In this document: positions 1,437 through 63,069 of the stretch, piece by piece
Layout: each line of letters starts with the position of its first letter
Numbering within the stretch: the stretch's first letter is position 1
From: Lamellibrachia satsuma
Lineage: Eukaryota > Annelida > Polychaeta > Sabellida > Siboglinidae
Assembly: GCA_033239005.1 (NCBI GenBank)
Contig: BSQZ01000036.1
Span: 6,571,501-6,635,500, forward strand
Length of the DNA: 64,000 nucleotides
Reading direction: 5' to 3'
Notes under the pieces: model-generated
Told to the model about the DNA's origin: nothing
What the model saw: only the letters and a program-made list of their open reading frames with translations
Databases searched by the model: none
Program-made: the position numbers and the translations under genes

Positions 1437-3742
1437 TCATCATCATCATCAACTTTATTCTCAAAAACCTTATTAGGTTACATGAGAATCACAATGTTGC
1501 ATACTGTTACAATGTGAGATGGCTATAAGTGTATGTAATCCAGGCTTCAATAATACTTATAAATTACATTGGTAAATGGTTTTACCAAAATACAAAACAC
1601 AAAAGTATCACAGGAAGATCTACTTCCAACTTAAAGCTATTTAAAATCTCCTGTACGAATTTACATAATTTAATTAGCTTTGCATGGCTTGTCAAATTAA
1701 ACAACTGGTCCATTTTTAAAGTGTTTGGTCTCACAAAATAATATCTAGAAATAAATTTAATTCTAGCTTCTTGAAAAAAAGTACATTTAAACAAATAATG
1801 AAACTCATCTCCAATATCATTACAATCACACAGAGTACAAAATCTCTCTTGCCTATCGATTCCACTATACCTGCCTTGCTGAATAGGCAACCGATTATTA
1901 CAAGTACGAAATTTACACAGAGGTCTAGATAGATTTGGTGGTAACACCAGCAAATATTTCTCCATTTTAAAATCATGTTTAATTATTCTGTAGGTTATAC
2001 ACCCATCGCTATTGCAAATATTACTACCCCACTGCTGATGATACTGGTCAGTAAGTTTCAATTTGACAACTGCTTTAAACCATTTAAGATTCACTATTTC
2101 TTGATTCAGCCACAAGTTAGATAGGCCAGTGTTATTTAAAATGTATTTAACATGAGTAATCCAGGGGGATTCAAAGATATTTGTAACATAGAATTGATAT
2201 AATAATTTATACATAATGCAAGACAGTTTAGATTCCTTTCCCATCAATAGTTTCCCCCAAAAATTCAACAATCTACTGCTTATTTTAATATTTAGTGGAA
2301 ATTGCCCAAGTTCTCCATAAACCATGGAAGTATGTGTTCTATTGTTTACCCCAAGTAAAATTTTACAAAATTTCCTATGTAACTTTTCAATTAACATAAT
2401 ATTTTCACATCCCCATACTTCACATCCATATAACAATATTGGGCATATAAGGGAATCAAATAGTTCTAACTGGATATCAACAGGGAGTTTTAGCTTCCTA
2501 GCTTTAGAAATTAAACATAACATTGCTCGGTTTGCCTGTTCATATAAATGTCTGATTGCTTTAGAGAATCTACCATTATAGTTAAAATTAATTCCTAGAT
2601 AGTCATACTTATCTACAATGGCAAGCTTATTTGGTCCAAATTTAAATTCTGGCAATTTTCTAATCTTCCCCCTTGAGAATACTAACACCTTAGTTTTGGC
2701 AGTATTAACATGCAATTTCCAAGTTTTGCAATAGTTAAATAGGGCGTCAAGTGCAGATTGTAACTGAGTAGGTGACTCTGCTAATACAATTGTATCATCA
2801 GCATACAGCAACACAAAAAGCTTTAGATACACAACAATGTCCTCTTTTTCAAAAAAATTTTCCATTAGACTAGAAATGTAGGTTAAACCCCCATATGCAT
2901 TTGACAGATGTGTTTCAAGATCATTCAAAAATAATGCAAACATTAGTGGTGACAAATTTTCGCCTTGTCGAACTCCAATATGGCATGGGAAGAAAGGTGA
3001 CAAATGTTTTGTAAATGTATTCATAATACATGATTTGGCTTCCTTATATAAGTTAAATATCACAGTGAAAATGTTTCCATCAATATTATTTGATAATAAT
3101 TTCAACCATAGGAATGTTCTGTTTACAGTGTCAAAAGCCTTTCTGTAGTCTACAAAGGCACAGTATAAGCGCTTCCTTTTATTTAAGTATAAATCGATTA
3201 AATTTTTCAAGACAAATACATGATCCATTGTGGAATAATCATGCCGAAATCCAGTTTGTTCCTCCCCCATTATTCCCAATTCATCAATATATTCAGTTAA
3301 CCTATTATTCAAAACAGAGGTGAATAATTTGCAAAAGCAACTGAGCAGTGTGATCCCTCTGTAGTTATCTGGGTTAGTTACAGGACCGTTATTTTTATAA
3401 ATTGGCAAAATAATACCCATGGCCCAATCTTTAGGAATATGGCCAGATTTTAGTATGACATTAAACAATTTAACATATACAGAGATCATACAATCCTCAG
3501 AATGTTTTAGGAACTCATTTAGGATTAGGTCCAACCCACACGCTTTGTTGTTTTTTAACTTATGTATACCATTTCTTACTTCCTCAGCTGTAAACATACT
3601 ATTTAAAAAAATATTATTATTATTGTTTGCAAAATTTTCATAATCATAGTCATTCTGATCCTCCTCCTCACTAAAACTTAACTTCTTAAAGTGTTCAAAA
3701 AAAGTGTTAGTATTAACTGTATTGATTTCTTTACCTTTCTGA
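1437..3742 (-). mobile_element. LINE family B, 5'-truncated non-LTR retrotransposon
   Basis: This minus-strand element carries a long RT reading frame (1582-3744). Its 3' end has a polyadenylation-like AATAAA followed by a short (TGA)n tail at about 1438-1450, the usual 3' end of several LINE clades. The endonuclease domain is absent, so it is 5'-truncated. It is inserted into a LINE A copy: the sequence AGAAAG is present at both junctions (after GGATTC on the 5' side and right after the TGA tail on the 3' side), consistent with a target-site duplication. Removing the insertion rejoins LINE A in the same frame. Confidence 0.82.
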
Positions 3743-3744
3743 AT
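1582..3744 (-). CDS. Reverse transcriptase of LINE B (5'-truncated)
   Basis: The frame stays open for over 700 codons. It begins within the element without a natural start; the first Met is at 3597. From N to C terminus it shows the fingers (NPDNYRGITLLSCFCKLF), palm motif A (CAFVDYRKAFDTVNR), GVRQGENLSPLMFALFLND, the catalytic LLYADDTIVLAES, the thumb (VDKYDYLGINFNYNGRFS) and a C-terminal Cys/His cluster (RFCTLCDC...EFHYLFKC). All RT catalytic aspartates are present and there is no internal stop, so the insertion is fairly young. It would perform target-primed reverse transcription, but the missing endonuclease makes this copy non-autonomous. The clade (I/Jockey or L1/Tx1-like) cannot be fixed without a tree. 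Confidence 0.85.
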   Translation of the reverse strand: MQKGKEINTVNTNTFFEHFKKLSFSEEEDQNDYDYENFANNNNNIFLNSMFTAEEVRNGIHKLKNNKACGLDLILNEFLKHSEDCMISVYVKLFNVILKSGHIPKDWAMGIILPIYKNNGPVTNPDNYRGITLLSCFCKLFTSVLNNRLTEYIDELGIMGEEQTGFRHDYSTMDHVFVLKNLIDLYLNKRKRLYCAFVDYRKAFDTVNRTFLWLKLLSNNIDGNIFTVIFNLYKEAKSCIMNTFTKHLSPFFPCHIGVRQGENLSPLMFALFLNDLETHLSNAYGGLTYISSLMENFFEKEDIVVYLKLFVLLYADDTIVLAESPTQLQSALDALFNYCKTWKLHVNTAKTKVLVFSRGKIRKLPEFKFGPNKLAIVDKYDYLGINFNYNGRFSKAIRHLYEQANRAMLCLISKARKLKLPVDIQLELFDSLICPILLYGCEVWGCENIMLIEKLHRKFCKILLGVNNRTHTSMVYGELGQFPLNIKISSRLLNFWGKLLMGKESKLSCIMYKLLYQFYVTNIFESPWITHVKYILNNTGLSNLWLNQEIVNLKWFKAVVKLKLTDQYHQQWGSNICNSDGCITYRIIKHDFKMEKYLLVLPPNLSRPLCKFRTCNNRLPIQQGRYSGIDRQERFCTLCDCNDIGDEFHYLFKCTFFQEARIKFISRYYFVRPNTLKMDQLFNLTSHAKLIKLCKFVQEILNSFKLEVDLPVILLCFVFW

Positions 3745-3890
3745 CCCTGTTGTTCTTCCCCGAATTCTTGCTCTACTCTCTTTCTGATCCTCCCATCCAG
3801 GGTCCTCTCTAGCAAGTAGTACTTACTAGCATTTGGATCCTCACTTTTATCAACATCTTCATCCGGTTGCGCGCGCAGCCGGATGTACAT
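3743..3890 (-). pseudogene. LINE family A reverse transcriptase, 5' part of the split copy
   Basis: The minus strand reads YYLLERTLDGRIRKRVEQEF followed by GEEQQGFRK, the fingers/motif-2 region of a non-LTR RT. It stops exactly where LINE B begins. The family's next residues (a Gly-rich stretch, then GTTDGMFAL) are found on the far side of LINE B at about 1430. The frame is kept across the gap apart from one TGA where a Gly codon is expected. Together with 860-1436 it is one older LINE A copy interrupted by LINE B. Confidence 0.7.
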
Positions 3891-4213
3891 AGCGTGCAGC
3901 GCGCGTACAGCACGCGTGCAACACGCGTATTGCCGTATCCCACACTACCCTATGTAACAATTAATGCGACACTACCCTATAATCGAGTCGCTGTTATAAT
4001 CGGTGTTGACGTAACGTGATATCCAACGAACTATGAACGGAGCCGTTTATCAGCAGGCGACCGCGTAGGCCGAAACACGAGTTGCAGCCGCTGTTAAACG
4101 AACAGCATTCTGTTGCGCAGAAAGTTCATGTTATTATGTTTTAGTTCTGATAGATAAGACTGTCTGGCGAACGAACAAAAAATCGAGGTGACAGCACTCG
4201 TTTATGTAACGCA
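3868..4213 (+). other. GC- and CpG-rich leader upstream of the NADAR gene
   Basis: Non-coding on inspection. Composition shifts sharply from AT-rich LINE sequence to CpG-rich DNA with repeated GCGCGC and ACGCGT motifs (3868-3925) and two near-identical CACTACCCTAT boxes about 30 bp apart (around 3945 and 3975). No clear TATA box is seen. This composition change marks the left edge of the compact three-gene block. Confidence 0.45.
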
Positions 4214-4237
4214 GTGAATGCGTGTTTTAACGCAAGT

Positions 4238-4684
4238 ATGGATCGTCCGGTTCATTTTAAAAGTTCTAATAGCTATTTGTTACATTTTTATGCGTGCAGA
4301 ATACGCGTATGGGGTAGGGAATTTCATACAGTCGAAAGCGCTTACCAGTGGAAGAAATGCATGCACAACAACGATCGAGACACGGCTGAAAAGATGGCAG
4401 CAACGCGCACGGGACTGCAGGCTAAACGCCTGAGCAAGAACATTCGTGAGAAGGTTCATTTACGAGAGAGTTGGAACACGCAACGTCGTTCCATAATGTA
4501 TGCTCTAGTAGCCGTGAAATTTCGTGATCCATACTTACGGAAACGCCTGCTAAGTACGGGAGAGCGACAATTGATGGAATGGGTGAGAAGTAAGGAGGGT
4601 TTTTGGGGTGCTTTAACCTACGACGGTCGAATGGGTCAGAATACGCTCGGGGAGTTACTTATGCAACTAAGAAAGTTCATTTGA
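4238..4684 (+). CDS. NADAR-domain protein (YbiA-like, DUF1768)
   Basis: This 148-residue protein is almost entirely one NADAR domain, about the family's usual length. Recognisable positions are VESAYQWKK with E33, AKRL at 62-65, W79, YALVAVKF (88-95), LLSTGERQLMEW with E114, FWG at 122-124 and GQNTLGELLMQLR with N135. These match the conserved Glu, Trp and Asn positions of the family, so it looks catalytically intact. Family members act on ADP-ribose-linked substrates. Bacterial NADAR proteins paired with DarT1 remove ADP-ribose from guanine in DNA, and YbiA is an N-glycosidase. The in-frame ATG at 4238 is chosen as start; the frame is open upstream to 4214 without another ATG, and an out-of-frame ATG lies at 4218. 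There is no intron. The neighbour is a single-stranded-DNA-binding-type protein, which suggests viral or transposon cargo. Substrate and role here are inference. Confidence 0.85.
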   Translation: MDRPVHFKSSNSYLLHFYACRIRVWGREFHTVESAYQWKKCMHNNDRDTAEKMAATRTGLQAKRLSKNIREKVHLRESWNTQRRSIMYALVAVKFRDPYLRKRLLSTGERQLMEWVRSKEGFWGALTYDGRMGQNTLGELLMQLRKFI

Positions 4685-4743
4685 AATCACCAGCAGGTAA
4701 AAAAATGGATCTGATGTAACGCGGATGTCAACCAGACATCGGG

Positions 4744-4895
4744 AGAACCAGTCCAAACTCGTTTGCACTGGCGAAAGCATCACACGACTTGCAACCCGAT
4801 TCCGACATCACGCGCTGTTTTGCAATAGCAAAAACACCAGAACCAGTCCGAACTCGTTTGCAGCGGTGAAAACATCACGCGTTGTTTCGCAATAG
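4744..4895 (+). repeat. Imperfect direct repeat upstream of the OB-fold gene
   Basis: The motif AGAACCAGTCCRAACTCG occurs at 4744 and 4839, a 95-bp spacing. A second motif, CATCACGCG(C/T)TGTTT then GCAATAGC, occurs at about 4806 and 4872. Both lie just upstream of a TATA box, so they may be promoter elements. Confidence 0.6.
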
Positions 4896-4918
4896 CGCTG
4901 TCAACAGCTGGTAAGGGC

Positions 4919-4927
4919 CTATATAAA
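4919..4927 (+). promoter_or_regulatory. TATA box of the OB-fold gene
   Basis: CTATATAAA lies about 60 bp before the ATG at 4987, leaving room for a start site near 4950 and a short leader. This compact arrangement is repeated for the next gene. Confidence 0.55.
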
Positions 4928-4986
4928 CACAGCAGTAATAGCCCGGTTATCACAATTGTTTCAAGCAATTCTACCAGAACACGAAG

Positions 4987-5448
4987 ATGACTGCCTCAAA
5001 CCTGATCTGCATCGATATGACTTTGACGAAATTACAATGCGAGGTGAGTGGCGGTCGGTATGTGTTTGCGCAGCCTTTAACAGTAGCGGCCCTCGGTGTT
5101 CAAAATAAATACGTGTTTTACAGGGCTTGCACTAAATGTCCCAAACGACTCGTCAACCACGTCTGCGCAGTGCACGGCTACCAGCGTGAGCACGTGAACA
5201 GATTCGCTCTGCGCGTACTGCTGTCAGATAGTATCGGGTGTGAGTGCTGGTGTACTTGTTTTGATGCAAATGCCGTCAAGATTCTAGGTTTCTCAGCAAA
5301 CGATTATGCGTGTATGCAGTCGGACGAAGAACGTTACGACTCAATGTCGACACTGCGAGGCAGCCAGGTCACGGTTGTTATCAGGAAGCGCGTGACCGGA
5401 GAGTATGTAAACTACATTGCGGAGGAGATTAATATCATAAATATGTAA
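4987..5448 (+). CDS. RPA1 DBD-C-like OB-fold protein with zinc ribbon
   Basis: This 153-residue protein aligns by eye with the C-terminal ssDNA-binding domain of replication protein A large subunit. It has YVFYRACTKCPKR and HVCAVHG, a putative zinc ribbon C48-x2-C51-x8-C60-x2-H63 inserted in an OB fold. The body follows with FALRVLLSDSIG, CWCTCFDANAVKILG and SQVTVVIRKRV, in the RPA1 order. RPA1 itself is several times longer; only this one domain is present. The expected role is binding single-stranded DNA during replication or repair. The ATG at 4987 follows a TATA box at the right distance. There is no intron. Free-standing OB-fold proteins of this type are known from Helitron-type transposons and large DNA viruses. 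Which of these it came from cannot be decided here. Confidence 0.75.
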   Translation: MTASNLICIDMTLTKLQCEVSGGRYVFAQPLTVAALGVQNKYVFYRACTKCPKRLVNHVCAVHGYQREHVNRFALRVLLSDSIGCECWCTCFDANAVKILGFSANDYACMQSDEERYDSMSTLRGSQVTVVIRKRVTGEYVNYIAEEINIINM

Positions 5449-7150: not shown

Positions 7151-8166
7151 TTTTGCTACTAAACCACAGGCATGAAATTATTAATTGTAGTTGCAAATGG
7201 TTATGTTTTAGTAACTCTTATAGGTGCGTAGGCCCAAACCATGAGTTTTGTTTCTCTATACGTTTATTTATATATATTAAGAACACACCTGTGCTTCCTT
7301 GTCCTGCCCGACTGGAAGTCTTTGTGCGCGCTCTTTGTCATGCACAGAATTTACCTTGTCTGGGGTTTCCAGAAATGTGATCCTACAAAACAGCACTAAA
7401 TTGGTACGGAGGCACAGCATCAAACATTGCTGCTTCATGGACTTTCCAAGAAGTTATTCAACGTTACCAGTAATTTTTACATTATGGTTATTATTACAAC
7501 ATGTTATACTACATATAAGAATGACAAGGGTCACAATAATTAGTAGATGTCTTTAATGATGAAGTGTTATGGTCGATAACACTAATTTGGTTATTTGAAA
7601 CTATACTAACAATATTTCTTAACATATTTCTAATTCACTATCAAAATGTAATGAATACTGTAGCTATTTGAAGCCAGTTTCATAACCCAATTTTTATGGG
7701 GTTACTAATAATCTTTTGAGCACTTATTACTATAAACTTCATTGATATATTCAACGGAACAAGTACAATTGAAGTGCGCATCCATGTAAACAGTGCGCAC
7801 AGATCTGCATATAAAAAATACATATTTGTATGATATATTGTAATAATAATAATAATAATACATTTGATTTCATATAGCGCCAGATCCAATATTATATTGT
7901 TTGTGGCTCTTTACAACATGTACAGATTTTTACAACCAGTATAAAGCTAGTTTAAATGAATAAAATATATGTGTATGCTATGTAATTAACACATAAGAAT
8001 ATTAGGCGTATATAAATATATAAGTTTTTTTTGGAATGCATAATACTAAAACGTAATAAAAATAAATAAATATAGAAAAAGTAGAAAAATAAATACAGTA
8101 ATTAAATAACTATTCTAAAATATACATTTTTGTTACAGCTCACTAGGATTGAGACAGAAAATGTAA

Positions 8167-8170
<4 letters not shown>
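7151..8170. other. AT-rich stretch, no gene seen
   Basis: No coherent coding frame or element family is recognised. It contains a short (AAT)n microsatellite at about 7841-7860 and strongly AT-rich DNA after 7900. Confidence 0.5.

Positions 8171-8249
<79 letters not shown>
8171..8249. repeat. (AT)n microsatellite
   Basis: A pure run of AT dinucleotides, about 39 copies. It directly abuts the truncated 3' end of the CR1/L2-like LINE. Confidence 0.97.
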
Positions 8250-8255
<6 letters not shown>

Positions 8256-8261
8256 TAATAC

Positions 8262-10035
8262 GGGGCCGGCGTAAGATTAAACTCGCAGCCGTATTGTGCA
8301 TCCTCTGCAGGCGAGCAATGTTGTTAACACAAGTACCATATAGAAGAGAATTGCAGTAATCAAGCCGTGACGTAATAATGGCATTGAAGACACGTTCCTT
8401 TGTTGTCATTGGAAGATAACGGCTCATCCGGTTAGTGTGGCGGAGATGGAACGAACACACACTGACGATGCTTGACACTTGCTTCTTAAGATCAAGGTGT
8501 CGATCCATGACGACACCAAGGTTACGAACAGATCGTGACGCAATAATTGTGACATCCCCTACACGTATTACACTGCTGTCAACGAGCGCAGCTGCAGTCC
8601 TGGGTACCACAGGGAGATATTCCGTTTTATTGTCATTCATGCACAGGCAGTTTGATGTTATCCACTGTTTCACAACATCCAAACAGTCTTCCATACGTCG
8701 CAGCGCAGTAGCCAAAGCTGTCGCGGTTAGGTCAAAGTGACAGTACAATTGCAGATCATACGCGTAATGATTAAACGAAAGCCCATGCGCTCTGATTATA
8801 TCGCCGATGGGTTGAATGTACAGCGAGAATAGCAATGGTCCAAGCACCGAACCCTGCGGGACACCCGATGTCACACATGTGTTCGATGATTCATCACGTA
8901 TGACTACTCGCTGAGTCCGATTCTGCAGATAAAATTGCAACCAGCCAAGCGCCTTGCCCACAATACTATAGCGCAAGCGTAGCCGCTGAATCATTATCTT
9001 GTGGTTGATTGTATCAAAGGCGGCACTAAAGTCGATGAGCACAAGTGCTGTACCTTGTCTGTTATCCATCGCGACTTTCATGGCATTTGTAACACATAAC
9101 AATGCGGTTTCATTTTACTGATTTTTCCGGTATGCTGATTGGAAACAATCCTGCATTCGCTGATCGGAAATATGACAGATGATCCTTCGGGCAATAACTT
9201 TCTCGATGACTTTGGATAGATGACTTAGATTGCTAACTGGACGGTAGTTGTTCAGTGTGTCCTTATCGAGTGATGGCTTCTTTAGCAATGGCCGAACAAT
9301 TGCCTGCTAAAGCAGCGCAGGCATAACTGCATTCACCAGAGAGGCATTTGTAATGCATGTGACGATAGGCGCAATAGAGTCTATGTTATCCTTCAGTTGT
9401 TTAGTGGGTAGGGGATCAAGCGCGTACGTCTTATCTGTGTTGGCGAGAATAGACGCTATCTCGGCTGTATTAGTAGGCTCGAACACTTCGAGAGAGTCAC
9501 TAAAACAAGGCGTCTCGTCCACTGAATGATATACGGCAGTGTGGCAATGCAAACTATTAAGCAGCTTCTCAATCTTCTCTTGGAAGTAACGTGAAAATGC
9601 ATCACAATTTTCCTTCGTTGAATTGAATTTGGGAAGTTGCTTTTGATGGACTTCAAGCGATCGCAGAATGCGAAACATACTTTTGTTGTCAGCGATTTCT
9701 AAACGTTCTTGGACATATCCCATTTTTCTTTGAATTATCAAGGCATAACACTCATCACGTGAATTAACATACAACTGACGATGTACCTATAGCTTGGTCC
9801 TCCTCAACAGATGGTCTATTTTGCGTCTTCTTTCGCGGGCATCTGCTATATCCGCATCGTACCACGGGTGGGGAATGTTGTTTCGAGTGCATACACTGCG
9901 CCACGGAGCGTGTTTATCGAGACACATCGTTAAGTTGTTGTTATATGTCGCCACCAGTTCTTCCACCTGCTGATCTTTACCACACGTTGTCATATCTACA
10001 CAAACAGACTCTATTTCACTTCTGAGTGCAACGTT
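8262..10035 (-). pseudogene. CR1/L2-like LINE, RT with upstream region, inactivated
   Basis: On the minus strand three frames follow one another in the order of one CR1/L2-type ORF2: a linker (9993-9787, HAPWRSVCTRNN, WYDADI), the pre-RT region (9774-9307, ALDPLPTKQLKD), then RT (9102-8262). RT motifs are LVLIDFSAAFDTINH, SGVPQGSVLGPLLFSLYI and the catalytic site HYAYDLQLY. That site should read YADD, so the first catalytic Asp is replaced by Tyr. In-frame stops replace a Lys codon near 9308 (TAG) and a codon near 9118 (TAA); another separates the first two segments. The RT C-terminus is cut off by the (AT)n run. The endonuclease is not seen. It is dead by several independent lesions. Confidence 0.85.
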
Positions 10036-10780: not shown

Positions 10781-10980
10781 AAAAAGGGTGTTATGTTACT
10801 TTAATTTATGGTTATGACGCCTTCAGGTGGCACGGGTAATTTCTGAGATCACTCCTTCGGGTGTGATGGGCCTAGTAGCTTTAATCGTGATTATTAAACC
10901 ATACAGTGGCGTTGAGGTCAAGATTTTGGTTCCTATAGTACATAGGGCAGATGTTTTTCACTTTACTACTCTCCTGTGCA

Positions 10981-12080
10981 CCATACGGTGTAAATGGTCG
11001 GATTGTTATATTGGTCCCTGTGGTGTAAAGGGCATGTTCATTTTCATTTGTTCTATTCCGCCATACGGTGTAAATGGTCGGATTGTTATATTGGTCCCTA
11101 TGGTGTAAAGGGCATGTTCATTTTCATTTGTTCTATTCCGCCATACGGTGTAAATGGTCGGATTGTTATATTGGTCCCTATGGTGTAAAGGGCATGTTCA
11201 TTTTCATTTGTTCTGTTCCGCCATACGGTGTAAATGGTCGGATTGTTATATTGGTCCCTATGGTGTAAAGGGCATGTTCATTTTCATTTGTTCTATTCCG
11301 CCATACGGTGTAAATGGTCGGATTGTTATATTGGTCCCTATGGTGTAAAGGGCATGTTCATTTTCATTTGTTCTATTCCGCCATACGGTGTAAATGGTCG
11401 GTGTATGATTTTTGGCCCTATGGTGTACAGGACATTTTTAATTTTTGTATTCCGCCATACGGTGTTAATGGTCGGACTAGAGGAATGGCCCTATGGTGTA
11501 CAGGGCATTTTTAATTTTATTCCGCCATACGGTGTAAATGGTCGGTGTATAATCTTTGGCCTGATGGTGTACAGGGCATTTGTATTTGTCTTATTCCGCC
11601 ATACGGTGTAAATGGTCGGTTTATGATCTTTGGCCCTATGGTGTACAGGGCATTTTTATTTTTCTTATTCCGCCATACGGTGTAAATTGTCGGTTTATGT
11701 TCTTTGGCCCTATGGTGTACAGGGCAGGTTACTTTTATTTTTTCTGGTTCCGCCATACGGTGGGTATGGTGGCTGTGATGGTTTTTCCCACAGTGTACAG
11801 GGCATGTTAATCATTAATTGTCTTATTCCGCCATACAGTGTGAATGGTCGGTTTATGCTATCGTTCGAACGCTAGGTAGTGCATGTTAATTTTAATTTCT
11901 TGTCCCACCATACATTGTAACTTGTCTGACGATAATATGGGTCCCCGTGATGTTCATGGCATGGTAATTTTATTATTCCGCCATTTGGGGTAAATGACCG
12001 GTTTACACTATTCATCCCTACGGTGTACAGGGCATTGTAATTTTCATTTGTCTGATTCCACCATACAGTTGGATTACCGG
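10981..12080. repeat. Hairpin array 1: 80-bp tandem unit with two constant-loop hairpins
   Basis: Five near-identical 80-bp units start at 10981, 11061, 11141, 11221 and 11301; a sixth at 11381 begins to diverge. Units of about 71-79 bp then diverge up to about 12080. Each unit holds two hairpins. Hairpin 1 has arms CCGCCAT and ATGG(T)CGG, with one bulged T, around the loop ACGGTGTAA. Hairpin 2 has arms CCCT and AGGG (GCCCT/AGGGC in later units) around ATGGTGTAA or ATGGTGTAC. The period is not a multiple of three and the long frames through it are artefacts of the repetition. Array 2 (13485-14745) uses the same loop. I do not recognise this element. Confidence 0.9.
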
Positions 12081-12144
12081 AGCGGGTAACGTTGTAGTTT
12101 GTGAGTGGATAATGTTGGTCAAGGGTTAACCGTGGTCCCTAGTT

Positions 12145-12158
12145 TGTAATGACACAGC
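12145..12158 (+). repeat. Shared motif following hairpin array 1
   Basis: TGTAATGACACAGC lies just after array 1 and recurs at 14799-14812 just after array 2. GTTAAC precedes both. This suggests the two arrays are copies of one module with a common right flank. Confidence 0.55.
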
Positions 12159-12509
12159 GTACATAAGGTTCACATTACTACGATTGGGTGCAGTGTTCAA
12201 CTTGAACAGTAAATGTTACAGCAACGGAGCAACTTCATCTTCTCTTAAGGGCGCGTGCATTCGTTGAGAATACTCACAGTTGTGTAGTAATTGGCATTGT
12301 CGCTTGAAAGATCGTCTAGCTGCTTACTGATAATACCGCAGACGATCAGATCGGTATAATAAGCCGTGAACGCATCTTCCAGGTTCGCAAGATTTTATTA
12401 ACGCAGAACTGTTGATTGTACAACATAGACTGGCTCTCTACCATTGTTCTTGTGTCTCCCATTTAACATTTAAAAGTCTTCAATAAATTTTGTTTTCTAA
12501 TGGTAAGGT

Positions 12510-12845
12510 AGGTATGGGCCGGCGTGGCCCATCCTTGCCGATAATTTTGAGTCCAAATTGAACGAGGTGCATGGTAATTTAGATCGCGCGCACCCGTTGT
12601 TTTATGAGTCTATTTCTGGCCTATTTATACCAGAGCTTTCAGAAGAACCCCGCCTCAGTGGAGGCGCGGTTAACCATTTTAGGAAATCGAGAAAGCCGTT
12701 ATTGGCCGATGTCCAAATACAATCGTCATCCCCGTACATGCTGGAAATGACCGTCGTATGCAAGGTATCGGGTCACCTTCTGAACCCCCCAGGACTGGGA
12801 GACCTTCTTGTGTCCTTGGGGACGGTCAGTTGCCAACTAAACTAG
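12510..12845 (+). CDS. Open frame between the hairpin arrays, unrecognised
   Basis: The frame is open from just after a TAA at 12504 to a stop at 12845, about 110 codons. It has no early ATG; it includes FYESISGLFIPELSEEPRLS and SSPYMLEMTVVCKVSGHLL. The section is GC-richer than its surroundings and reads like real protein, possibly an internal exon. No splice site is certain and I recognise no family. It may belong with the next open frame. Confidence 0.3.
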   Translation, partial: RYGPAWPILADNFESKLNEVHGNLDRAHPLFYESISGLFIPELSEEPRLSGGAVNHFRKSRKPLLADVQIQSSSPYMLEMTVVCKVSGHLLNPPGLGDLLVSLGTVSCQLN

Positions 12846-13091
12846 TTTCTTATGGCCTGCATTCTAAATCGGGTAAACATTTCTCCCGTTTGACAGTCCA
12901 GTTATTATTACAGTCGGGGCGACTCTACCCCTCCCTACTGTGTATACTAAACAATAAGAAAAGCTGCAAACTGGCCAAAAACTAGCTTGCCTTACATAAG
13001 TTGTATCAACCTGGGTTTTCTTTATGCTAACGTTAAATCATTGATTAAACATGTCTGCAATGACCGCTATCTCTGTTCTTACAATTTTAGG

Positions 13092-13361
13092 CTGACCAAA
13101 CCTTACAATGAGATGCGCGTGATGCGGGAGTTGTCACGTGTAGCGCTGCAACTGGTAAGTCCTACGGGTGGTCACGACGCGGTTTTGTCAGCCTATGTTG
13201 ATCGCCAGGTGGCGGCATCATCCGTAGTAACCCCATCGAGTCATCCGGTCGTCCGGCCAGCTTCTGCCGTTGGTCGCCAGGTGGTGGCACCTACTGCTCC
13301 AGCGCCTGTGCCCTCGACGAGTGGACAAGCCGATATTCACTCTGCCTCCAGTGCTCGTTAA
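13092..13361 (+). CDS. Possible terminal exon with Ala/Pro/Ser-rich tail, unrecognised
   Basis: A pyrimidine-rich acceptor (CTTACAATTTTAG, ending about 13090) opens a frame reading LTKPYNEMRVMRELSRVALQ. A possible GTAAGT donor follows at about 13156, or the frame simply continues into a low-complexity tail rich in Ala, Val, Pro and Ser up to the TAA at 13361. Internal near-repeats encode RQVAAS and RQVVAP. No domain is recognised. It lies between the two hairpin arrays. Confidence 0.3.
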   Translation: MTKPYNEMRVMRELSRVALQLVSPTGGHDAVLSAYVDRQVAASSVVTPSSHPVVRPASAVGRQVVAPTAPAPVPSTSGQADIHSASSAR

Positions 13362-13484
13362 GCGACGACTTCCGTGGCTCCTGAGCCAGTGCCCTCATCG
13401 AATCATCAGGATACTGGCATGGTGGATCCTCCTTGGCCGACAACCGACCGCTTGATGGAGACATCCACTGAAAATGTAACTAAT

Positions 13485-14745
13485 CTATGCGGGGGAAGTG
13501 GAGCAGTTTTGACAACCCATGCGGTGAGTAAGCGGATCTAAATTTAGTTAATCCATGCAGTGATAGGGAGAAGTTTTTGTTATTTCCATGCGGTGTCACG
13601 GGTGTAAATAAAAAGATAACGTTTGCTAAGCCATGTGGTGTAAATGGCACAATTGTATTCCATACGTTGAAAATGGAGGGGTTTCTGTATTCCGTGCGGT
13701 GAAAACGGAAAGTGACATGGAGAAGTTTTGTTATTTCCATACGGTGTAAATGGAAATTAACTCTTGTTAAGCCATGCGGTGTAAATGGCACAATTGTATT
13801 ACGTGCGGTGTAAACGGAGCAATGTCGGTAGTACGTGCGGTGAAAACGGAAAGTGATATGGAGACTTTGTTATTTCCATGCGGTGTAAATGGAAATTAAC
13901 GTTTGGTAAGCCGTGCGGTGTAAATGGCACAATTGTATTCCGTGCGGTGGAAACGGAGCAATTTCTGTAGTCCGTGCAGTGAAAACGGAAAGTGATATGG
14001 AAAAGTTCTGTTATTGCCATGCGGTATAAATTGAAATTAACTTTTGGTAAGCCATGCTGTGTAAATAACACATTTATATTCCGTACGGTGTAAACGGAGC
14101 ACTTTCGATAGTCCGTGCGGTGTACACGGAGATGGTGGGTTAACCCATGCAATAGGACATTTATTGAAAATTTCACTAATCCGTGCATTGCAGGCGGAAC
14201 AGTTTTGTTAACCCAGGCAGCGAGTAAGCGGATGTACATTTGGGTAATACATGCAGTGATATAGAGACGTTTTGTTATTTCCATGCGGTGTATATGAACG
14301 CTAACTTTTGTTAAGCCATGCAACTAAATGACACCAGTGTATTCTGTGCGGTGTAAGCGGAGAATTGGTACGGAGAAGGTTTATTTCCATGCGGTGTAAA
14401 TGGCACAATTGTAGTCCGTGCGGTGAAACGGAGGAGTTTCTATATTCCATGCTGTGTATATGGAAAATTGTGTGAATCCATGAAGTGGACAAATTACTGA
14501 AATTTTACTAATCCATGCAGACGAGGCGGAACAGTTTTGTTACCCCTTGCAGGGAGAAAACAGATGTAAATATGTTTGTTTTGTTAGATCCATGCATTGT
14601 AATTGGAGTATAAGTTTTATTAAGGCATGCAGTGCAAATGGCACAATTGTAGAACCCTTTATATTCCGTGCGGAAAATGGAGAAGTTTTTGCATTCCATG
14701 TACTATTTAAGCCATATAGTGTAAATGGCACAATTTTCATGATAA
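13485..14745. repeat. Hairpin array 2: about 30 diverged constant-loop hairpins with compensating stem changes
   Basis: Hairpins recur every 25-45 bp. The loop is mostly GCGGTGTAA (also ACGGTGTAA). The arms change in a paired way: GCCAT/ATGGC (13770), TTTCCAT/ATGGAAA (13735, 13875), TCCGT/ACGGA (14080), TCCGTG/CACGGA (14110), and TTCCAT/ATGGAA (14440). A few units carry a single G-T wobble (GCCGT/ATGGC, about 13910), as expected of an intermediate. Other units have decayed arms. Paired change with a fixed loop implies selection on, or a copying process through, the folded form. Confidence 0.88.
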
Positions 14746-14798
14746 TATAGGTGACCGTACGTTAACGTTTAGTTATGGCTTAATGGTAGTTCGTGATA

Positions 14799-14812
14799 TG
14801 TAATGACACAGC
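14799..14812 (+). repeat. Shared motif following hairpin array 2
   Basis: This is the same TGTAATGACACAGC found after array 1, again with a GTTAAC about 40 bp before it. Confidence 0.55.
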
Positions 14813-14843
14813 TGGTCCTGGGTACCACAATTAATAATTATAG

Positions 14844-15059
14844 ATGCTGCCACAAGTGGCAATCAAGCAGCGACACCGATGGCGCGTTGAGTCAGCAGGG
14901 GCTGCAGCAGCTGCATCGACACCACACCTTCAACAATTGGTCAACAGGCTGGCTAGGTTGCTCCCCATGGATGGCCTGCTGGAAGCGGCCATAAATCTAC
15001 ACGTATCAGTACTGTCGCTTATATGTTGTAGGTGCATAGTGAGACATTCTCGCCGATAA
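14844..15059 (+). CDS. Small Ala/Leu-rich ORF after hairpin array 2, unrecognised
   Basis: A 71-residue frame with a true ATG. It has a run of Ala, then a leucine-rich helical part (LQQLVNRLARLLPMDGLLEA) and a hydrophobic Cys-containing end. No signal peptide or family recognised. AATAAA occurs about 380 bp downstream (near 15438). It could be a terminal exon of a transcript that also contains the frames at 12.5-13.4 kb, with array 2 lying in the intron. That link is inference. Confidence 0.28.
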   Translation: MLPQVAIKQRHRWRVESAGAAAAASTPHLQQLVNRLARLLPMDGLLEAAINLHVSVLSLICCRCIVRHSRR

Positions 15060-20250: not shown

Positions 20251-23200
20251 TTAGCACCCGTCACCCGGGGCATAGCGTTCTGGTCTTCTGATTTTGCGGC
20301 CAAATCGTGTGTGCACGGCAGCTGGACGGCCCCGGGGGGCTCGCTTAGCTGCATCGACTGGAATATCCGAGTCGAGATGGGCAGGTTTCAGGCGATCGAT
20401 GCTAACGCGGTCGTGTCGATTGCCGTAGTCGAGTACGAACGACTTCTCGCCGTGCGTCAATACCTTGTAGGGTCCCTCGTACGGCGGTGTGAGGGGTGGA
20501 CGGTGGCTGTCGCGGCGCACAAAGACGTAGGCGCTGTGTGCCAGAGTGGACGGCACAGACGACGGTCTGGTGCCGTGCGGGATGGAAGGTCTCGGTGCCA
20601 GGTCGCGAACCCTTTCGCGTAGTCGCGGAAGGAACCGTGCTGCCTCCTGAGTCTCTTGCCCACGAGGGATGAAATCTCCCGGGACCGTCAGTGGCGCGCC
20701 GTAGACCAGCTCCGCTGATGAACACCCGAGATCTTCTTTGGGCGCAGTGCGAATACCGAGCAGGACCCATGGCAGTTCGTCGAGCCAATTAGGTCCATCG
20801 AGACGAGCCATCAGTGCGGATTTGAGGTGTCTGTGAAACCTATCCACCAGTCCGTTCGACTGTGGGTGGTACGCGGAGGTGCGGTGTAAACGTGTACCGT
20901 GTAGCTGCGACAGTACCGACCACAATTCAGATGTGAACTGCGATCCTCTGTCAGACGTCATGTCCGCTGGCACACCGAAACGAGCCACCCAGTGAGCAGC
21001 AAAGGCTCTCGCGCATGTGGTGGTCTGTGCGTCGACTAGAGGAATTGCCTCCGCCCATCTCGTGAACCTGTCAACGACGGTGAACAGGTAGCGGTGGTTC
21101 TGCGAAGGCGGAAGAGGGCCGACTAAGTCCACGTGCACATGGTCGAAACGACGCGTCGTTGGGGCGAAGTCTGCCACGGGAGACGCTGCATGCCGATGGA
21201 TTTTAGCTGCCTGACAACGGAGGCATGACTTAGCCCATGCGCCGAGTTGCTTGTTGAGACCTCTCCATACGAACTTTTCTGCGATCATCTTCCTCGTGGT
21301 TCGGATCGAAGGATGAGAGAGGCCGTGCACTGCGTCGAAAACGGTGCGCTGCCACGTGTCGGGGACGAGAGGTCGATGTCGGCCAGTGGAGACGTCACAG
21401 TAGATCGATGGGCCGTTCGTATTGAGCGGAATTTCTCGTACGACAAGACCCGTCGGAGCTGACCGCATGTTGGCAATGCCGTCATCCGTGAGCTGGGCTG
21501 CTGCCATCGCCTCGTAGTCCACACCATGAAGAGGTGCCTTGATTGCTGAGATGCCGTCTCTAGATAAGGTGTCTGCCACGGTGTTATTCTTCCCCTCTAT
21601 GTATCGCACATCTGTGGTGAATTCAGAGATGTATGCCAAGTGCCTCTGTTGTCGCGGCGACCACGGATCGCTGATTTTAGAAATCGCGAAGGTCAGAGGC
21701 TTGTGGTCCATGTAAAGCGTGAAGGTGCGGCCTTCGAGGAAATATCGAAAGTGACGAATGGCTAGATACATAGCTAAAAGCTCGCGATCGAAAGCGCTGT
21801 ACTTTTGTTCTGCAGGTCGAAGTTTGCGACTGAAGAACGCCACTGGCTTCCACGAACCAAGGTCCTGTTCAAGAACGGCGCCAATCGCTGTTCCCGATGC
21901 GTCAACTGTCAGTGCGGTGGGTCTATCGGCGCGTGGGTGCACGAGCATCGTTGCCCTTGCTAGAGCTTCTCTGGCGGCGTTGAAAGCGTCTTCGAGGTCG
22001 CTCAACCACTCCAAGTTGACAGGATTGCCAGCCAACGCAGCGTAGATGTGACGCATGATGTGAGCAGCGTTCGGTACAAAACGATGGTAGAAGTTGACCA
22101 TACCGGCGAACTGTTGGAGTCCCTTCACTGTTGTCGGTCTTTCAAACGTTCGAATAGCGTCTACCTTAGCGGGTAGCGGAATTGCTCCTTCACGTGTGAT
22201 GTGATGACCGAGGTAGTCGATAGTCGGTGTTCCAAACTGGCACTTGCTCTCGTTGATCACCAACCCGTGTGAAGCCAGGCGCTCGAAAACTGTTCGTAGG
22301 TGTGACACGTGATCCTCGGCAGTTGCGCTACTAACCAGGATGTCGTCTAGATAGACGAACACGAACGTGAGTCCTTTGCAGACAGTGTCCATGAGGCGTT
22401 GGAAGGTTTGTGCTGCATTCTTAAGGCCGAAGGGTGTACGCAGGAACTCGAAAAGGCCGAACGGCGTGATGACGGCCGTCTTGCTGATGTCCGTTGGCGC
22501 GACAGGGATCTGGTGATACCCACGTACTAGGTCGATCTTCGAGAAGAGAGTGGCGCCCGCAAGTTGCGAGGAAAAGTCCTGAATATGTGGAACTGGATAC
22601 TTGTCAGGCACAGTGATATCGTTAAGTCTCCGATAATCGCCGCACGGTCTCCAGCCGCCAGAGTTCTTTGGCACCATGTGCAAAGGTGACGCCCACGGGC
22701 TGTCAGATCGCCTGATGATGCCCATTTCTTCCATAGTGTTAAACTCTGCTTTGGCCACTGCGAGTTTATCAGGTGGTAATCTGCGGGCCTTGGCGTATAC
22801 GGGAGGGCCTGTAGTTGTGATGAAGTGTTCAACGCCGTGGCGAACGGAAGGGCTCGCAAACTCAGGGCGTGTAATGGCCGGAAACTCGTCGAGTATACGC
22901 ATGTAGGGGTCGTCTGAAGTGACGTGGTGCAGATGTAGGGCCGGCTCGTCAGATTGCTGTAGTGCTGATGACGCGAATGAAGTGGCGTTTATCAGACGTC
23001 GGCTTTGTAGATCGACGAGTAGTGCGTTGGCCTGTAGGAAATCTGCACCAAGAAGCGGTGTCCTCACATCAGCGATGATGAAAGGCCACGTGTAGTTGCG
23101 CCTGTCTAGACTGAGAGACATCTCTCTGGTTCCGTATGTAGCGATGTTCGTCCCGTTGGCAGCGACAAGGGAAAGCGTGCGTACGCCACCGTTTCTGTCC

Positions 23201-23367
23201 TTGTGCGAGGCAGGAAACACGCTGACGGATGCTCCCGTGTCAACCAGGAAACGCTTGGCTGAGATGTCGTCCACGATGAACAACAGGCTGTTGCGTTGGC
23301 CGGCCGCCGAAGCTACTACTGACGACCGGCTCCGTCGTTTCCCGTGAACGTACACGGTGGTTTGCAC
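20251..23367 (-). CDS. pol: Gypsy Pol polyprotein (protease, RT, RNase H, integrase)
   Basis: The 1038-codon frame is unbroken. Protease: [10 protein letters not shown] with D43. RT: motif [15 protein letters not shown] (275-288) and catalytic VYLDD (338-342). RNase [16 protein letters not shown] (486-500) and DHKPL (554-558). Integrase: zinc residues H681, H685, C715 and C718, catalytic D747 and D806. The third catalytic position is Asp 842 (LVDRFHRHL) where Glu is expected, with the correct 35-residue spacing. That change probably weakens or kills integration. The frame overlaps gag by 52 nt in the -1 frame, so it would be expressed by -1 ribosomal frameshifting. The Met assigned at its start is not necessarily used. 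No chromodomain was recognised in the short C-terminal tail. Confidence 0.93.
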
Positions 23368-23990
23368 TTCCTGGCCGCGTTGCCGAATCGCCGATGGTAG
23401 TAGCAGATGTCGGTCGCTATCGGTCGCGCGTTTCGTTGAGTGCGGTTGTTTGAAGTTGGTGAAGAGCGGTTATCTGCAGCAGACACCACGGATGCCTGTC
23501 CTCTTGCTTGCTTGTCGGCGGTCTTCGCGAGGGCTCGTGGGTCGTCGAAGCTGGCTGTTGTTAGTTGCATTCGCACGTCCTCTGGCATCGACTTCAGGAA
23601 CAGGCTTTCGAAAAGCAGGCACGTTCTATGCCCACCGAGTAAGCCGAGCATCTCGTCCATCAGTTGAGATGGGCGCATGTCACCGAGACTGTGCGTGACA
23701 AATTCGAGCAGACGATCCGCTCGCTGCCTCGGCGACAGGCCGAAAACATCCGTTAGGCGTCGCCTGAGGTTGTCGTATTTGCCATGCTGTGGTGGATCTT
23801 CCAGTACATCAATTACGCGCAGTGCAGTGGTTTGATCGAGTGCGGCGACCACGTAGTGATATTTCGTCACGTCCGATGTGATATTTTTCAGCGCGAACTG
23901 GGCCTCCGCCTGTTGTAACCACACCCGGGGTTGGTCGGTCCAAAAGACCGGCAGTTTCAATGCGACTGCGTTCGAGTCCGGCATTTCCAT
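23316..23990 (-). CDS. gag: Gypsy Gag with Cys-His-Cys-Cys box
   Basis: This 224-residue protein starts [17 protein letters not shown]. The N-terminal two thirds match the capsid region of Gypsy elements ([11 protein letters not shown], then [14 protein letters not shown]). Near the C-terminus [18 protein letters not shown] gives C-x2-H-x9-C-x3-C instead of the usual CCHC knuckle, the hallmark reported for the CsRn1 clade. It forms the particle and binds the RNA. The ATG at 23990 is followed by an uninterrupted frame that ends inside the start of pol. Confidence 0.88.
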
Positions 23991-24669: not shown

Positions 24670-24911
24670 GCCTTTAGAAATGTCACGAACCTGTCACTAT
24701 GAGACAGGATATGAAAAGACAGACACTAATCTGTCATTATGAGACATGAGTTGACCAGACAGACACTAATATGTCACTATGAGACAGTAGATGACAAGAC
24801 AAACACGAACCTGTCACTATGAGACAGGAGATGACATAACAGACATAAACATGTCACTATGAGACAGGAGATGACAAGACAGACATAAATATGTCAACAT
24901 GAGTCAAGAGA
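24670..24911. repeat. 40-bp hairpin minisatellite
   Basis: Units start at 24691, 24731, 24771, 24811, 24851 and 24891, an exact 40-bp period. Each contains CTGTC and GACAG (or close variants) around the 7-nt loop ACTATGA, followed by ATGACAAGACAGACA-like spacer. Single units recur at about 25013, 25055, 26366 and 26408. Confidence 0.88.
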
Positions 24912-25945
24912 TGATAATAACACTGTTCCTAAGATGCAATAACTAAAGTAATTTCCTTAAAAAAAAAATTAATTAGTCACCATGAGACAGGAGATTACAA
25001 AATAAACACTAACATGTCGCTATGAGACAGGAGATGACAAGACAAACATTAATCTGTCACTATGAAACAGGACATGACAGTCATGGGTTAATTTCAATTG
25101 TTAATTTAATTAACTCAATTAATTTAATTTAATTAATTGATTTACAAGAAAAGGTAAAGGCTAAATTAGCTTCACCAAAAGGGGGTAATTTTATTCTATT
25201 TAATTGACAAATTCCAAATTAACTCTCAATTAAGTGCTCATTTAACAGTAGGTATTACTGTATAGTTCACATCCATGTTACTCAGGCATTTCCAAAAGGC
25301 AGTCACCATTCCAGTGATTAGTCTGACAGAGATAAGGTTAAGGTATGTATGAATGGGAGGGAGAATATCTCTCGGCATTAATACTGTCTGTACCAACTGG
25401 AGTTACTGGTCATTCAGGCACTTGTGAATTGGAGGGAAGGCCTAGACAATAGAATGTCCTCTTTTAGTGTTGTAAGTTGATGACAAATGGTGGCTACTGC
25501 AAATCTGCAAAATACTTGGCTGGTAACCTGCAGCCAAATGGACCTATACATTAGACTATGTATCTATATATTTTCGGTATGTCCGCAAGCATACATATAT
25601 CATGCATAGAAAAATAAAATAGCTTCAGTTTGGGATCTTTTTACAGCGCCAACTGGTATCAAAAGCAAGCCAATTCAAGTGATACATAAAAAAATTGTGT
25701 ATAAATATTTAAATACTAGTGTATAAAGGGGAAACCTAATGAGTTAGCATTAACACATTGCATAAATAACACTTTGATGCATAGAAATTATGTATGTAGT
25801 TACCCGGTTTTGTTAATTTGGTGGTGGAATACTGGAGGAAACTCCACACCCTGCAAATCCTCAGCCACAAATTTACATTCCTTTCAGAAAAGAACATTAA
25901 TTTTAACAAGCATCTACAACTTTTAAAATGTGATCAAATACCCCA
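24912..25945 (+). repeat. Direct duplication, copy 1 of 2 (~1.03 kb, offset ~1.36 kb)
   Basis: It starts TAACACTGTTCCTAAGATGC and runs to AAAATGTGATCAAATACC. It matches 26271-27296 with scattered differences and small indels. It includes an AT-only tract (about 25090-25140) and no gene. Confidence 0.85.
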
Positions 25946-26270: not shown

Positions 26271-27300
26271 AATAACACTGTTCCTAAGATGCAATAACTA
26301 AAGTAATTTCCTTAAAAAAAAATTAATTAGTCACCATGAGACAGGAGATTACAAAATAAACACTAACATGTCACTATGAGACAGGAGATGACAAGACAGA
26401 CATTCACCTGTCACTATGAAACAGTAGATGAGAGTCATGGGTTAATTTCAATTGTTAATTTAAATAACTCAATTAATTAAATTTAATTAATTGATTAACA
26501 AGAAAAGGTAAAGCCTAAATTAACTTTACAAAACAGGGGTAATTTTATTTTATTTAATTGACAAATTCCAAATTAACTCTCAATTAAGTGCTTATTTAAC
26601 AGTAGGTATTACTGTATAGTTCAAACCCACTTTACTCAGGCATTTCCAAAAGGCAGTCACCATTCCAGTGATTAGTCTGACAGAGATAAGGTTAAGGTAT
26701 GTATGAATGGGAGGGAGAATATATCTCGACATTAATACTGTCTGTACCAACTGGAGTTACCTGGTCATTCAGGCACATGTGAATTGGAGGGAAGGCCTAG
26801 ACAATAGAATTTCCTCTTTTAGTGTGGTAAGTTAATGACAAATGGTGGCTTCTGCAAATCTACAAAATATTTATCTGGTAACCTGCAGCCAAATGGACCT
26901 ATGCATTAGACTATGTATCTATATATTTTCGGTATGTCCGCAAGCATACATATAACATGCAGAGAAAAGTAAAATAACTTCAGTTTGGGTATTTTTACAG
27001 CGCCAATTGGTATCAAAAGCAAGCCAATTCAAGTGATACATAAAAAAATTGTGTATAAATATTTAAATACTAGTGTATAAAGGGGAAACCTAATGAGTTA
27101 GCATTAACACACTGCATAAATAACACTTTGATGCATAGAAATTATGTATGTTTACCCGGTTTTGTTAATTTGGTGGTGGAATACTGGAGGAAACTCCACA
27201 CCCTGCAAATCCTCAGCCACAAATTTACATTCCTTTCAGAAAAGAACATTAATTTTAACAAGCATCTACAACTTTTAAAATGTGATCCAATACCAAATTT
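26271..27300 (+). repeat. Direct duplication, copy 2 of 2
   Basis: Second copy of 24912-25945. It keeps two of the CTGTC/GACAG hairpin units and ends exactly where the large segmental duplication begins (27301). Confidence 0.85.
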
Positions 27301-30934: not shown

Positions 30935-31330
30935 GCTCTTTACACTTCTAGTAAGCTGTAATGTCCGTGAAAGACTAACCGGGTTGCGAGTGCAAAAATC
31001 ACTTTACACTACAAGTCAGCTGTTATATCTGTATAGAGACTCACTGGTATGTGAGTGCAATAATTATTTGACACTTTGAGTCAGTTGTATGGCCTATATA
31101 AAGACTCATTGGTATGTGAGTGGAAGAATAATTTTTCAATTCGAGTCAGCTGTAATATCGGAATAAAGACTGACTTGGCTGTGAGTACAATAATCACTTT
31201 ACACTTCAAGTAAGCTGTAATATCTGTGTAAAGACTGACTGGGCTGTGAGTACAACAATCACTTTACACTTCAAGTAAGCTGTAATGTCTGCGTAAAGAC
31301 TGACTTGGCTGTGAGTGCAATAATCAGCAT
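30935..31330. repeat. ~65-bp minisatellite, copy 1
   Basis: About six units with CACTTTACACTTCAAGTAAG and GTAAAGACTGACT-like phrases, placed in the intron between exons B and C. The second copy is at about 46759-47154. Confidence 0.75.
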
Positions 31331-46758: not shown

Positions 46759-47154
46759 CTCTTTACACTTCTAGTAAGCTGTAATGTCCGTGAAAGACTA
46801 ACCGGGTTGCGAGTGCAAAAATCACTTTACACTACAAGTCAGCTGTTATATCTGTATAGAGACTCACTGGTATGTGAGTGCAATAATTATTTGACACTTT
46901 GAGTCAGTTGTATGGCCTATATAAAGACTCACTGGTATGTGAGTGGAAGAATAATTTTTCAATTCGAGTCAGCTGTAATGTCGGAATAAAGACTGACTTG
47001 GCTGTGAGTACAATAATCACTTTACACTTCAAGTAAGCTGTAATATCTGTGTAAAGACTGACTGGGCTGTGAGTACAACAATCACTTTACACTTCAAGTA
47101 AGCTGTAATGTCTGCGTAAAGAATGACTTGGCTGTGAGTGCAATAATCAGCATG
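46759..47154. repeat. ~65-bp minisatellite, copy 2
   Basis: Same six-unit block as at 30935-31330, same unit number, few substitutions. Confidence 0.75.
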
Positions 47155-59640: not shown

Positions 59641-59659
59641 AACCACAAACGTAATAAAA

Positions 59660-59935
59660 CATGTGACTGTGCACAACAAGTGATGGTACAAAACATGTGA
59701 CTGTGCACAACAAGTGATGGTACAAAACATGTGACTGTGCACAACAAGTGATGGTACAAAACATGTGACTGTGCACAACAAGTGATGGTACAAAACATGT
59801 GACTGTGCACAACAAGTGATGGTACAAAACATGTGACTGTGCACAACAAGTGATGGTACAAAACATGTGACTGTGCACAACAAGTGATGGTACAAAACAT
59901 GTGATGTGACAACAAGTGATGGTACAAAACATGCT
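59660..59935. repeat. 34-bp minisatellite at the end of the Harbinger transposase
   Basis: Eight near-perfect units of GTGACTGTGCACAACAAG plus TGATGGTACAAAACAT. The period is not a multiple of three and all three minus frames are open through it, so those open frames mean nothing. Confidence 0.95.
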
Positions 59936-62905: not shown

Positions 62906-62952
62906 TAGGGGATAGCGCGAACGCAGTCCCCCACTACCAAAAATTACGCACC

Positions 62953-62987
<35 letters not shown>

Positions 62988-63069
62988 GCCCAACCGAAGT
63001 GCAATGGAAAGGCCTCGCCCTGGGAGAACCGCCGTGTGGATCACGGTATCTCCTGTGCCAGGTAAGTAT
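62906..63069 (-). ncRNA. U1: U1 spliceosomal snRNA gene
   Basis: The minus strand from 63069 is a 164-nt U1 snRNA, the same length as the human RNA. The 5' end ATACTTACCTG, which pairs with 5' splice sites, is perfect. Stem-loop 2 has the U1A-binding ATTGCAC. The Sm site is AATTTTTGG (62937-62945). Stem-loop 4 ends with the intact GCGTTCGCGC tetraloop. Stem-loop 1 keeps its stem (GATACCG/CGGTT side), but the U1-70K-binding loop is GATCCACACGG rather than the conserved GATCACGAAGG type. So this may be a variant or a non-functional copy. A clear proximal sequence element and 3' box could not be picked out by eye. Confidence 0.95.

Follow-up and report, generated by a model that had tools for sequence, protein, structure and literature searches.

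The stretch of DNA analysed here, 64,000 nucleotides of the annelid Lamellibrachia satsuma (contig BSQZ01000036.1, positions 6,571,501 to 6,635,500; hereafter the window), carries two tandem arrays of short hairpins. Each unit has a stem of four to eight pairs around a fixed nine-base loop with the consensus RYGGTGTAA, and at two stem positions the arms change in matched pairs. The arrays recur elsewhere and are physically linked to an open reading frame (ORF), here called ORF1; comparison with other copies gives good support for regarding them as parts of a mobile element that is present in many copies and encodes a Gag-like ORF1 protein, and not as an isolated satellite. This was overlooked in the original prediction, made from the letters alone, as was the position of array 1 directly upstream of ORF1 and of array 2 after a truncated ORF1. 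As a tentative explanation, quite possible if short of probable, we propose that the arrays are cis-acting hairpin modules of a Gag-type mobile element, and that the loops are read by an element protein on the folded transcript.

Two arrays of hairpins with a constant loop

Both arrays were located where the original prediction had put them. They contain 50 in-register units, all on the plus strand and 44 of them distinct. The units were listed by allowing at most two mismatches to the loop consensus, and were chosen by their loop, not by the pairing of their arms. Two further loop matches, at 14135 and 14467, are off-register; they were dropped before the tree-aware and core-stem counts described below, and are retained in the Watson-Crick count of 42 distinct units. 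The arrays and their flanks are:

10975 to 12038, plus strand: array 1, 25 in-register units, types A and B alternating
Type A hairpin of array 1: CCGCCAT-ACGGTGTAA-ATGGTCGG
Type B hairpin of array 1: GCCCT-ATGGTGTAC-AGGGC, replaced in the near-identical copies by TCCCT-ATGGTGTAA-AGGGC
10818 to 10974, plus strand: left flank of array 1, by eye alike in the other genomic copies P0057 and P0059
12115 to 12158, plus strand: end motif of array 1, ending TGTAATGACACAGC, repeat family D19
13479 to 14734, plus strand: array 2, 25 in-register units
14769 to 14812, plus strand: end motif of array 2, a copy of the array 1 end motif, repeat family D19

For the type A hairpin the best pairing is CCG-CCAT/ATGG-T-CGG, in which one base is bulged (as folded on the minus strand). 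Array 1 had been described as a regular 80-bp unit with two hairpin types. The two types are found, but the 80-bp spacing holds for the first repeats only; further downstream it is 70-77 bp, with one spacing of 158 bp. The left flank seems by eye to consist of decayed A and B units, and contains one weak match to the covariance model introduced below (10925-10953, E 2.3). When it comes to array 2, said to be diverged with many arms still pairing, the arms do pair, but the core is a 141-bp higher-order repeat with four hairpin classes (TTTCCAT/ATGGAAA, GCCAT/ATGGC, TTCCGT/ACGGA, and TCCGT/ACGGA). The end motif forms a 44-bp direct repeat after each array, and its two copies are 73% identical.

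The arrays are real and not a product of chance. A strict hairpin filter, which demands a loop with at most two mismatches to RYGGTGTAA, Watson-Crick pairing in at least four of the five core pairs and an innermost position that is paired, gave 39 plus-strand matches and one minus-strand match within 10800-14850, compared to eight and two, respectively, in the rest of the window. A covariance model built from the 50 units found 52 plus-strand matches with E < 0.3, all within 10975-14734, of which 50 are the model's own training units. The next match (E 0.84) lies on the minus strand over the first unit, at 10966-10994, while outside the arrays the model finds no site with E < 1 in the window, the best having E 1.1. 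The predicted abundance of hairpins sharing this loop consensus is thus borne out by units in register and by model matches with E < 0.3 that are confined to the arrays. A scan of the whole window against Rfam gave a U1 small nuclear RNA (snRNA) at 62906-63069 as its sole match; with no match above the gathering score over the arrays, a known RNA family was ruled out for them.

Paired changes in the arms

The core stem was defined as five pairs, numbered outward from the loop, and compared among the 44 distinct units. Changes on both sides are found at pairs 2 and 5 only, while pairs 1, 3, and 4 never change on more than one side. Pair 2 is AT in 24 units, CG in eight and GC in eight, with two wobbles and two unpaired; pair 5 is TA in 15, GC in 12, GT in seven, AT in two, TG in one and unpaired in seven. 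The claim that the arms vary as matched pairs therefore stands for pair 2 (AT, GC, and CG) and pair 5 (TA, GC, and a few AT), but not for the remaining three.

Standard pairs, G-U included, occupy 193 of the 220 core-stem cells (87.7%), compared to 72.9% in shuffled sets, none of which (0/500) reached the real number. For covariation the units score 0.430, compared to 0.151 in shuffles (again 0/500) and no more than 0.125 in six slid versions. Of the five measures, two were not above shuffles, namely the number of both-side-changed pairs (2; 494/500) and of further pair types (11; 52/500). When only Watson-Crick pairs are counted among the 42 distinct shorter units, 165 of 210 cells are paired, and the maximum among 5000 shuffles was 146. 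Seven class consensuses, drawn from 33 of the 50 units as selected by us, pair at 33 of 35 positions, which is matched by eight of 5040 arm permutations, the real order included. Matched arms are thus found in more than two unit types, and the arrays are not explained by two ancestral units copied wholesale.

A null model that takes the relatedness of the units into account is more demanding. Here pair 2 outranks every other column pair, with E about 0.03, and is alone in standing out; the paired-cell count was attained in one of 400 null sets. Covariation above what shared ancestry would give, which had been suggested as a check, is accordingly seen for pair 2, and not for the other pairs; the independent events are few.

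The near-fixed pairs 1, 3, and 4 form a CC.T...A.GG dyad, and this would suit double-stranded DNA sites, for example promoter or insulator repeats upstream of ORF1, in which a dimer sees the dyad CC-T...A-GG. The Su(Hw) sites of gypsy and the promoter monomers of mouse LINE-1 are sites of a comparable kind, and array 1 does lie directly upstream of ORF1. However, a dimer would not account for in-step changes at pairs 2 and 5, and the asymmetric loop is conserved as much as the arms. Ordinary dyad DNA sites were rejected as the sole explanation on account of the in-step changes, and we consider this kind of site improbable.

Between the classes of array 1 and those of array 2 the identity is 72% for the loop and 69% for the arms, but 31% for the linkers. 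A BLAST comparison of the two arrays (E up to 0.1) found an exact 17-base hairpin, CCATACGGTGTAAATGG, as well as a 27-base stretch around CCATACGGTGTAAATGG at 85%. Since loop and arms are similar while the linkers are unrelated, the comparison suggests that it is the hairpin that is constrained, and not the entire repeat.

Paired changes can also be followed in copies from elsewhere, because minus-strand translations display the letters of pair 2 as amino acid residues, in two reading registers. In register 1 (78 rows) R..T (G:C) and H..M (A:T) are found 34 times each, with five crossed and five other rows. Register 2 (72 rows) has V..R in 38, I..W in 10, eight crossed and 16 others. The pair 2 letters are concordant in 68 of 73 rows (Fisher p 6e-15) and 48 of 56 rows (Fisher p 2e-5), respectively, the p values being descriptive, as the copies share descent and no correction for kinship was applied. 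The rows omitted before these calculations were five in register 1 (R..K 3, Q..M 1, L..M 1) and 16 in register 2 (A..Q 11, A..C 1, A..R 1, V..L 2, I..G 1).

A multi-copy element encoding a Gag-like protein

A search of the protein database with the ORF that lies between the arrays (12951-13361) gave 15 relatives. A second search, using an artificial query made of part of P0032 and translated array stretches, gave 32 matches, of which we read 25 as array 2 translations, two (P0057 and P0059) as array 1 translations and five as ORF1 proteins. In one of these five, P0052 (13 members), array 1 units run in frame directly into ORF1. P0055 (397 amino acids) begins in the array 1 end motif and the leader and goes on into ORF1, and P0026 does likewise. 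Both appear to leave the ORF1 frame near their ends and are longer copies, not intact ones; the presumed ORF1 start lies in both about 20 codons past the array 1 end motif. P0052 has a C-terminal Cys/His tail, CQAYNRGPCAYNPCRFHHICKLCGGSHPATKC, that judged by eye is like a CCCH finger and a zinc knuckle. Pfam gave no match for P0055, and a single sub-threshold and unrelated one for P0052. Between the arrays, the window copy consists of:

12157 to 12219, plus strand: leader just 5' of ORF1, with 71% identity to residues 4-24 of P0026 and alike by eye in P0055
12220 to 13107, no strand: sequence in place of the ORF1 N-terminal region, interpreted as an insertion of foreign sequence
13104 to 13472, plus strand: ORF1 (Gag-like) fragment, ending at METST just before array 2

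The order in the window is thus array 1, ORF1 leader, insertion, ORF1 fragment and array 2, and all 50 in-register units share the orientation of ORF1. Within the putative insertion, recurrence elsewhere was seen only for 12758-13107, which lies beside other sequence in P0028 and P0029. The ORF1 fragment has a stop codon at 13359-13361. With both arrays present and most of ORF1 lost, the window copy reads as defective. P0033 aligns across the junction between ORF1 and array 2 and has the same THAVSKRI end, the intervening stretch being similar only in part, and P0030 and P0035 resemble this case by eye. As the alignment of P0033 passes through the junction, the latter is probably common to an amplified derivative. 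By our reading the arrays occur in two differently deleted derivatives, namely the window copy and P0052.

Array 1 is tied to array 2 by P0059 and P0062, which report an equal longest contig (868665), and to ORF1 by P0057 and P0023 (831114), equal reported longest contigs being taken as one contig.

The eight window ORFs that were scanned contain no recombinase and no Rep/helicase. RVT_1 was found in two minus-strand ORFs, 1582-3822 and 8143-9114, both of which read as LINEs, while an ORF at 20251-23469 reads as Gypsy by motif alone. Together with the U1 snRNA, these LINE-type reverse transcriptases and the Gypsy-like ORF mark the window as animal-type nuclear DNA. A set of viral contigs, which may omit records of the window's own genome, gave no exact match to the first array pattern and no relative of P0031, P0052 or the RPA-type protein described below. 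The second array pattern had one match there (L001), which we read as a lone chance match beside phage-type genes, and a viral or phage origin of the arrays was dropped following these searches.

Several other features were noted in the window. Adjacent plus-strand ORFs at 4154-5448 encode a protein with a NADAR domain as well as a single RPA-C-type OB-fold protein. For the OB-fold protein 20 related clusters were found, including one of 83 members, and it is therefore probably carried by another mobile element. A link between this pair and the arrays was not shown, as none of the RPA matches (0/20) shares a listed longest contig with the ORF1 or array matches. At 24684-25079 and 26330-26431 there is a 40-bp tandem repeat with the imperfect inverted repeat CTGTC-ACTATGA-GACAG, the arms of which do not change in pairs as judged by eye in the first array only. 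Nearly the same 65-bp, six-copy tandem repeat is found at 30938-31326 and 46761-47149, about 16 kb apart. Recurrent LINE-like ORF fragments and a 22-bp GA-rich repeat, often with a spacing of ~1.83 kb, occupy 33200-56500 as in a tandem duplication, and a 34-bp tandem repeat of 8.2 copies with 99% match lies at 59656-59933.

What may read the hairpins

According to the explanation we propose, the loop and the pairing of the arms would be maintained while the linkers and some arm letters drift, and the drifting units would be homogenised through unequal crossing-over. The loops may then serve as many-fold binding sites for an element protein on the folded transcript; the candidate binder is ORF1, by way of its zinc-knuckle-like tail, and binding to the loops would mark the element RNA for packaging. 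Packaging of the sense RNA by ORF1 is the first guess because the arrays share the orientation of ORF1, array 1 lies in the leader region, and the tail looks RNA-binding. Selection on the fold, RNA rather than DNA as the molecule read, and the identity of the binding partner are what we infer here. The suggestion of a folded strand recognised by a protein fits the constant loop and the matched arms, both kept between arrays of unrelated linkers. The folding results and the wobbles do not single out RNA or single-stranded DNA as the folded molecule, or replication or transposition through the hairpin, which had also been put forward.

Hairpins this short with nine-base loops are weak, and in eight folds of single repeats z ranged between +0.55 and -2.5. 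For the array 1 repeat at 11058-11137, the minus-strand fold predicted consists of the exact hairpins, bulged base included, and the type A hairpin is predicted for the repeat at 11577-11650 as well.

A number of results weigh against RNA modules read by ORF1. The independent double changes are few, with a tree-aware E of 0.03 for one pair only, and the three single-branch double changes were matched by 95 of 400 null sets. Selection on the sense RNA should make G-U more common than A-C, but the window has eight G-T and seven A-C wobbles, a tally that sets aside seven G-T at pair 5 of type A, because the bulged T yields a better stem, and comes besides 20 other mismatches. The translated copies have five G-T and eight A-C, and show no strand bias either. 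Among the rows omitted from the Fisher calculations, those with A are mostly off-register matches and the others probably broken pairs. In one fixed register of 48 rows, where one row (V..L) falls outside the four forms, half-changed pairs (eight) outnumber doubly changed ones (three), which speaks against strict maintenance of pairing in old copies. RNAalifold predicts no consensus fold and no pairs for the units. The 541-base core of array 2 has z -1.4 as plus-strand RNA, -1.2 as minus-strand RNA and -2.3 as plus-strand DNA, and the model for the plus-strand RNA often joins neighbouring units instead of forming the small hairpins. For ORF1, Pfam gave no family with a meaningful score, so that "Gag-like" is a judgement by eye, and its structure model was discarded (predicted local distance difference test, pLDDT, 37).

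Several of these results would be expected if the fold has no function. Template switching in replication can perfect quasi-palindromes and unequal crossing-over can spread them, and such neutral homogenisation would agree with the small number of independent events, the common half-changed intermediates, the wobbles without strand bias, and the make-up of array 1, whose copies are near-identical towards one side and decayed towards the other. The G:C form of pair 2 puts a CpG in each arm, and CpG decay in both arms would aid the change from CCGT/ACGG to CCAT/ATGG. Neutral homogenisation would account for the paired arms. It leaves unexplained, though, why the nine-base loop is kept between arrays with unrelated linkers, and neither the C:G form that pair 2 takes in type B nor the G:C/T:A forms at pair 5 are CpG changes. 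We regard a purely neutral origin as rather unlikely.

The plus-strand DNA gave the lowest z of the three whole-core folds, and the hairpins might instead be read as single-stranded DNA by a recombinase or replication protein of the element. Integron attC sites, which are read by a tyrosine recombinase, would be the analogue. The same end motif closes both arrays, the wobbles have no RNA strand bias, and a zinc-finger Gag occurs in the Pat1-like tyrosine-recombinase retroelements (PMC4157794). On the other hand, the scanned ORFs offer neither a recombinase nor a Rep protein, and the nearest reverse transcriptase (8143-9114, on the opposite strand) reads as part of a LINE. The probability of such sites appears low.

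Loops read by ORF1 on the transcript would have counterparts in viruses. The dispersed packaging hairpins of RNA viruses and the packaging signals of retroviruses have a constant loop and a variable stem, occur in several copies, and are read by coat or Gag proteins. The arrays share the first three traits, while the protein binding is putative here, and we know of no tandem satellite-like arrays among viral packaging hairpins. The double-hairpin elements of fungal mitochondria are mobile hairpins in organelle genomes with compensatory changes. Unlike the arrays they are organellar and not tied to a protein-coding element, and a fixed nine-base loop is to our knowledge not found in them.

The repetitive hairpin-forming element (RHE) of sponge mitochondrial DNA is a short hairpin in many copies, with two types that differ by a few complementary substitutions (PMC2800124). 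The arrays are alike in their many short hairpins and in the complementary substitutions between types. In RHE, however, the stems are conserved and the loops differ, whereas here the loop is constant and the arms vary; RHE is also mitochondrial and intergenic, whereas the present units form nuclear tandem arrays in a mobile element. The conserved stems, variable loops, and mitochondrial location that define RHE are thus not features of the arrays.

Tandem arrays carried by an invertebrate mobile element are also known from the oyster Helentron/HINE, where two modules enclose a satellite-like array and there are subterminal inverted repeats and a 3' palindrome (PMC7492417). In the portion of that paper covered the arrays are not described as loop-constant, stem-compensated units. 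Autonomous Helentron copies have a Rep/helicase, and none was found among the eight ORFs scanned here. Pat1-like retroelements of the DIRS group are reported from Nematoda, Echinodermata, Mollusca, and Cnidaria. They possess direct repeats and a Gag with a zinc finger, and the sections consulted say nothing of hairpin arrays (PMC4157794). The Cys/His tail that P0052 shows by eye might correspond to that zinc finger. Their reverse transcriptase and tyrosine recombinase are not seen in the window, where the copy is truncated, and the 44-bp direct repeat that follows each array in this copy might be compared with their split direct repeats.

No precedent for loop-constant, stem-compensated arrays in animals was recognised in the open-licence literature, most of it parts of abstracts, and the arrays are as far as searched new in form. 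An animal element that uses tandem hairpins of this kind as loop-recognition signals, be it in an RNA packaging array or in single-stranded DNA recombination sites, is on the unlikely side. Either form, a Gag-read packaging array or sites comparable to attC, would within the literature searched be the first in an animal nuclear genome. When a mobile element carries tandem arrays, these are usually viewed as passive satellites, while the unit described here resembles a structured signal, with a fixed loop on interchangeable stems in two arrays with unrelated linkers. If the proposed reading is true, satellite-like DNA can have its beginning in a recognition array that serves a mobile element.

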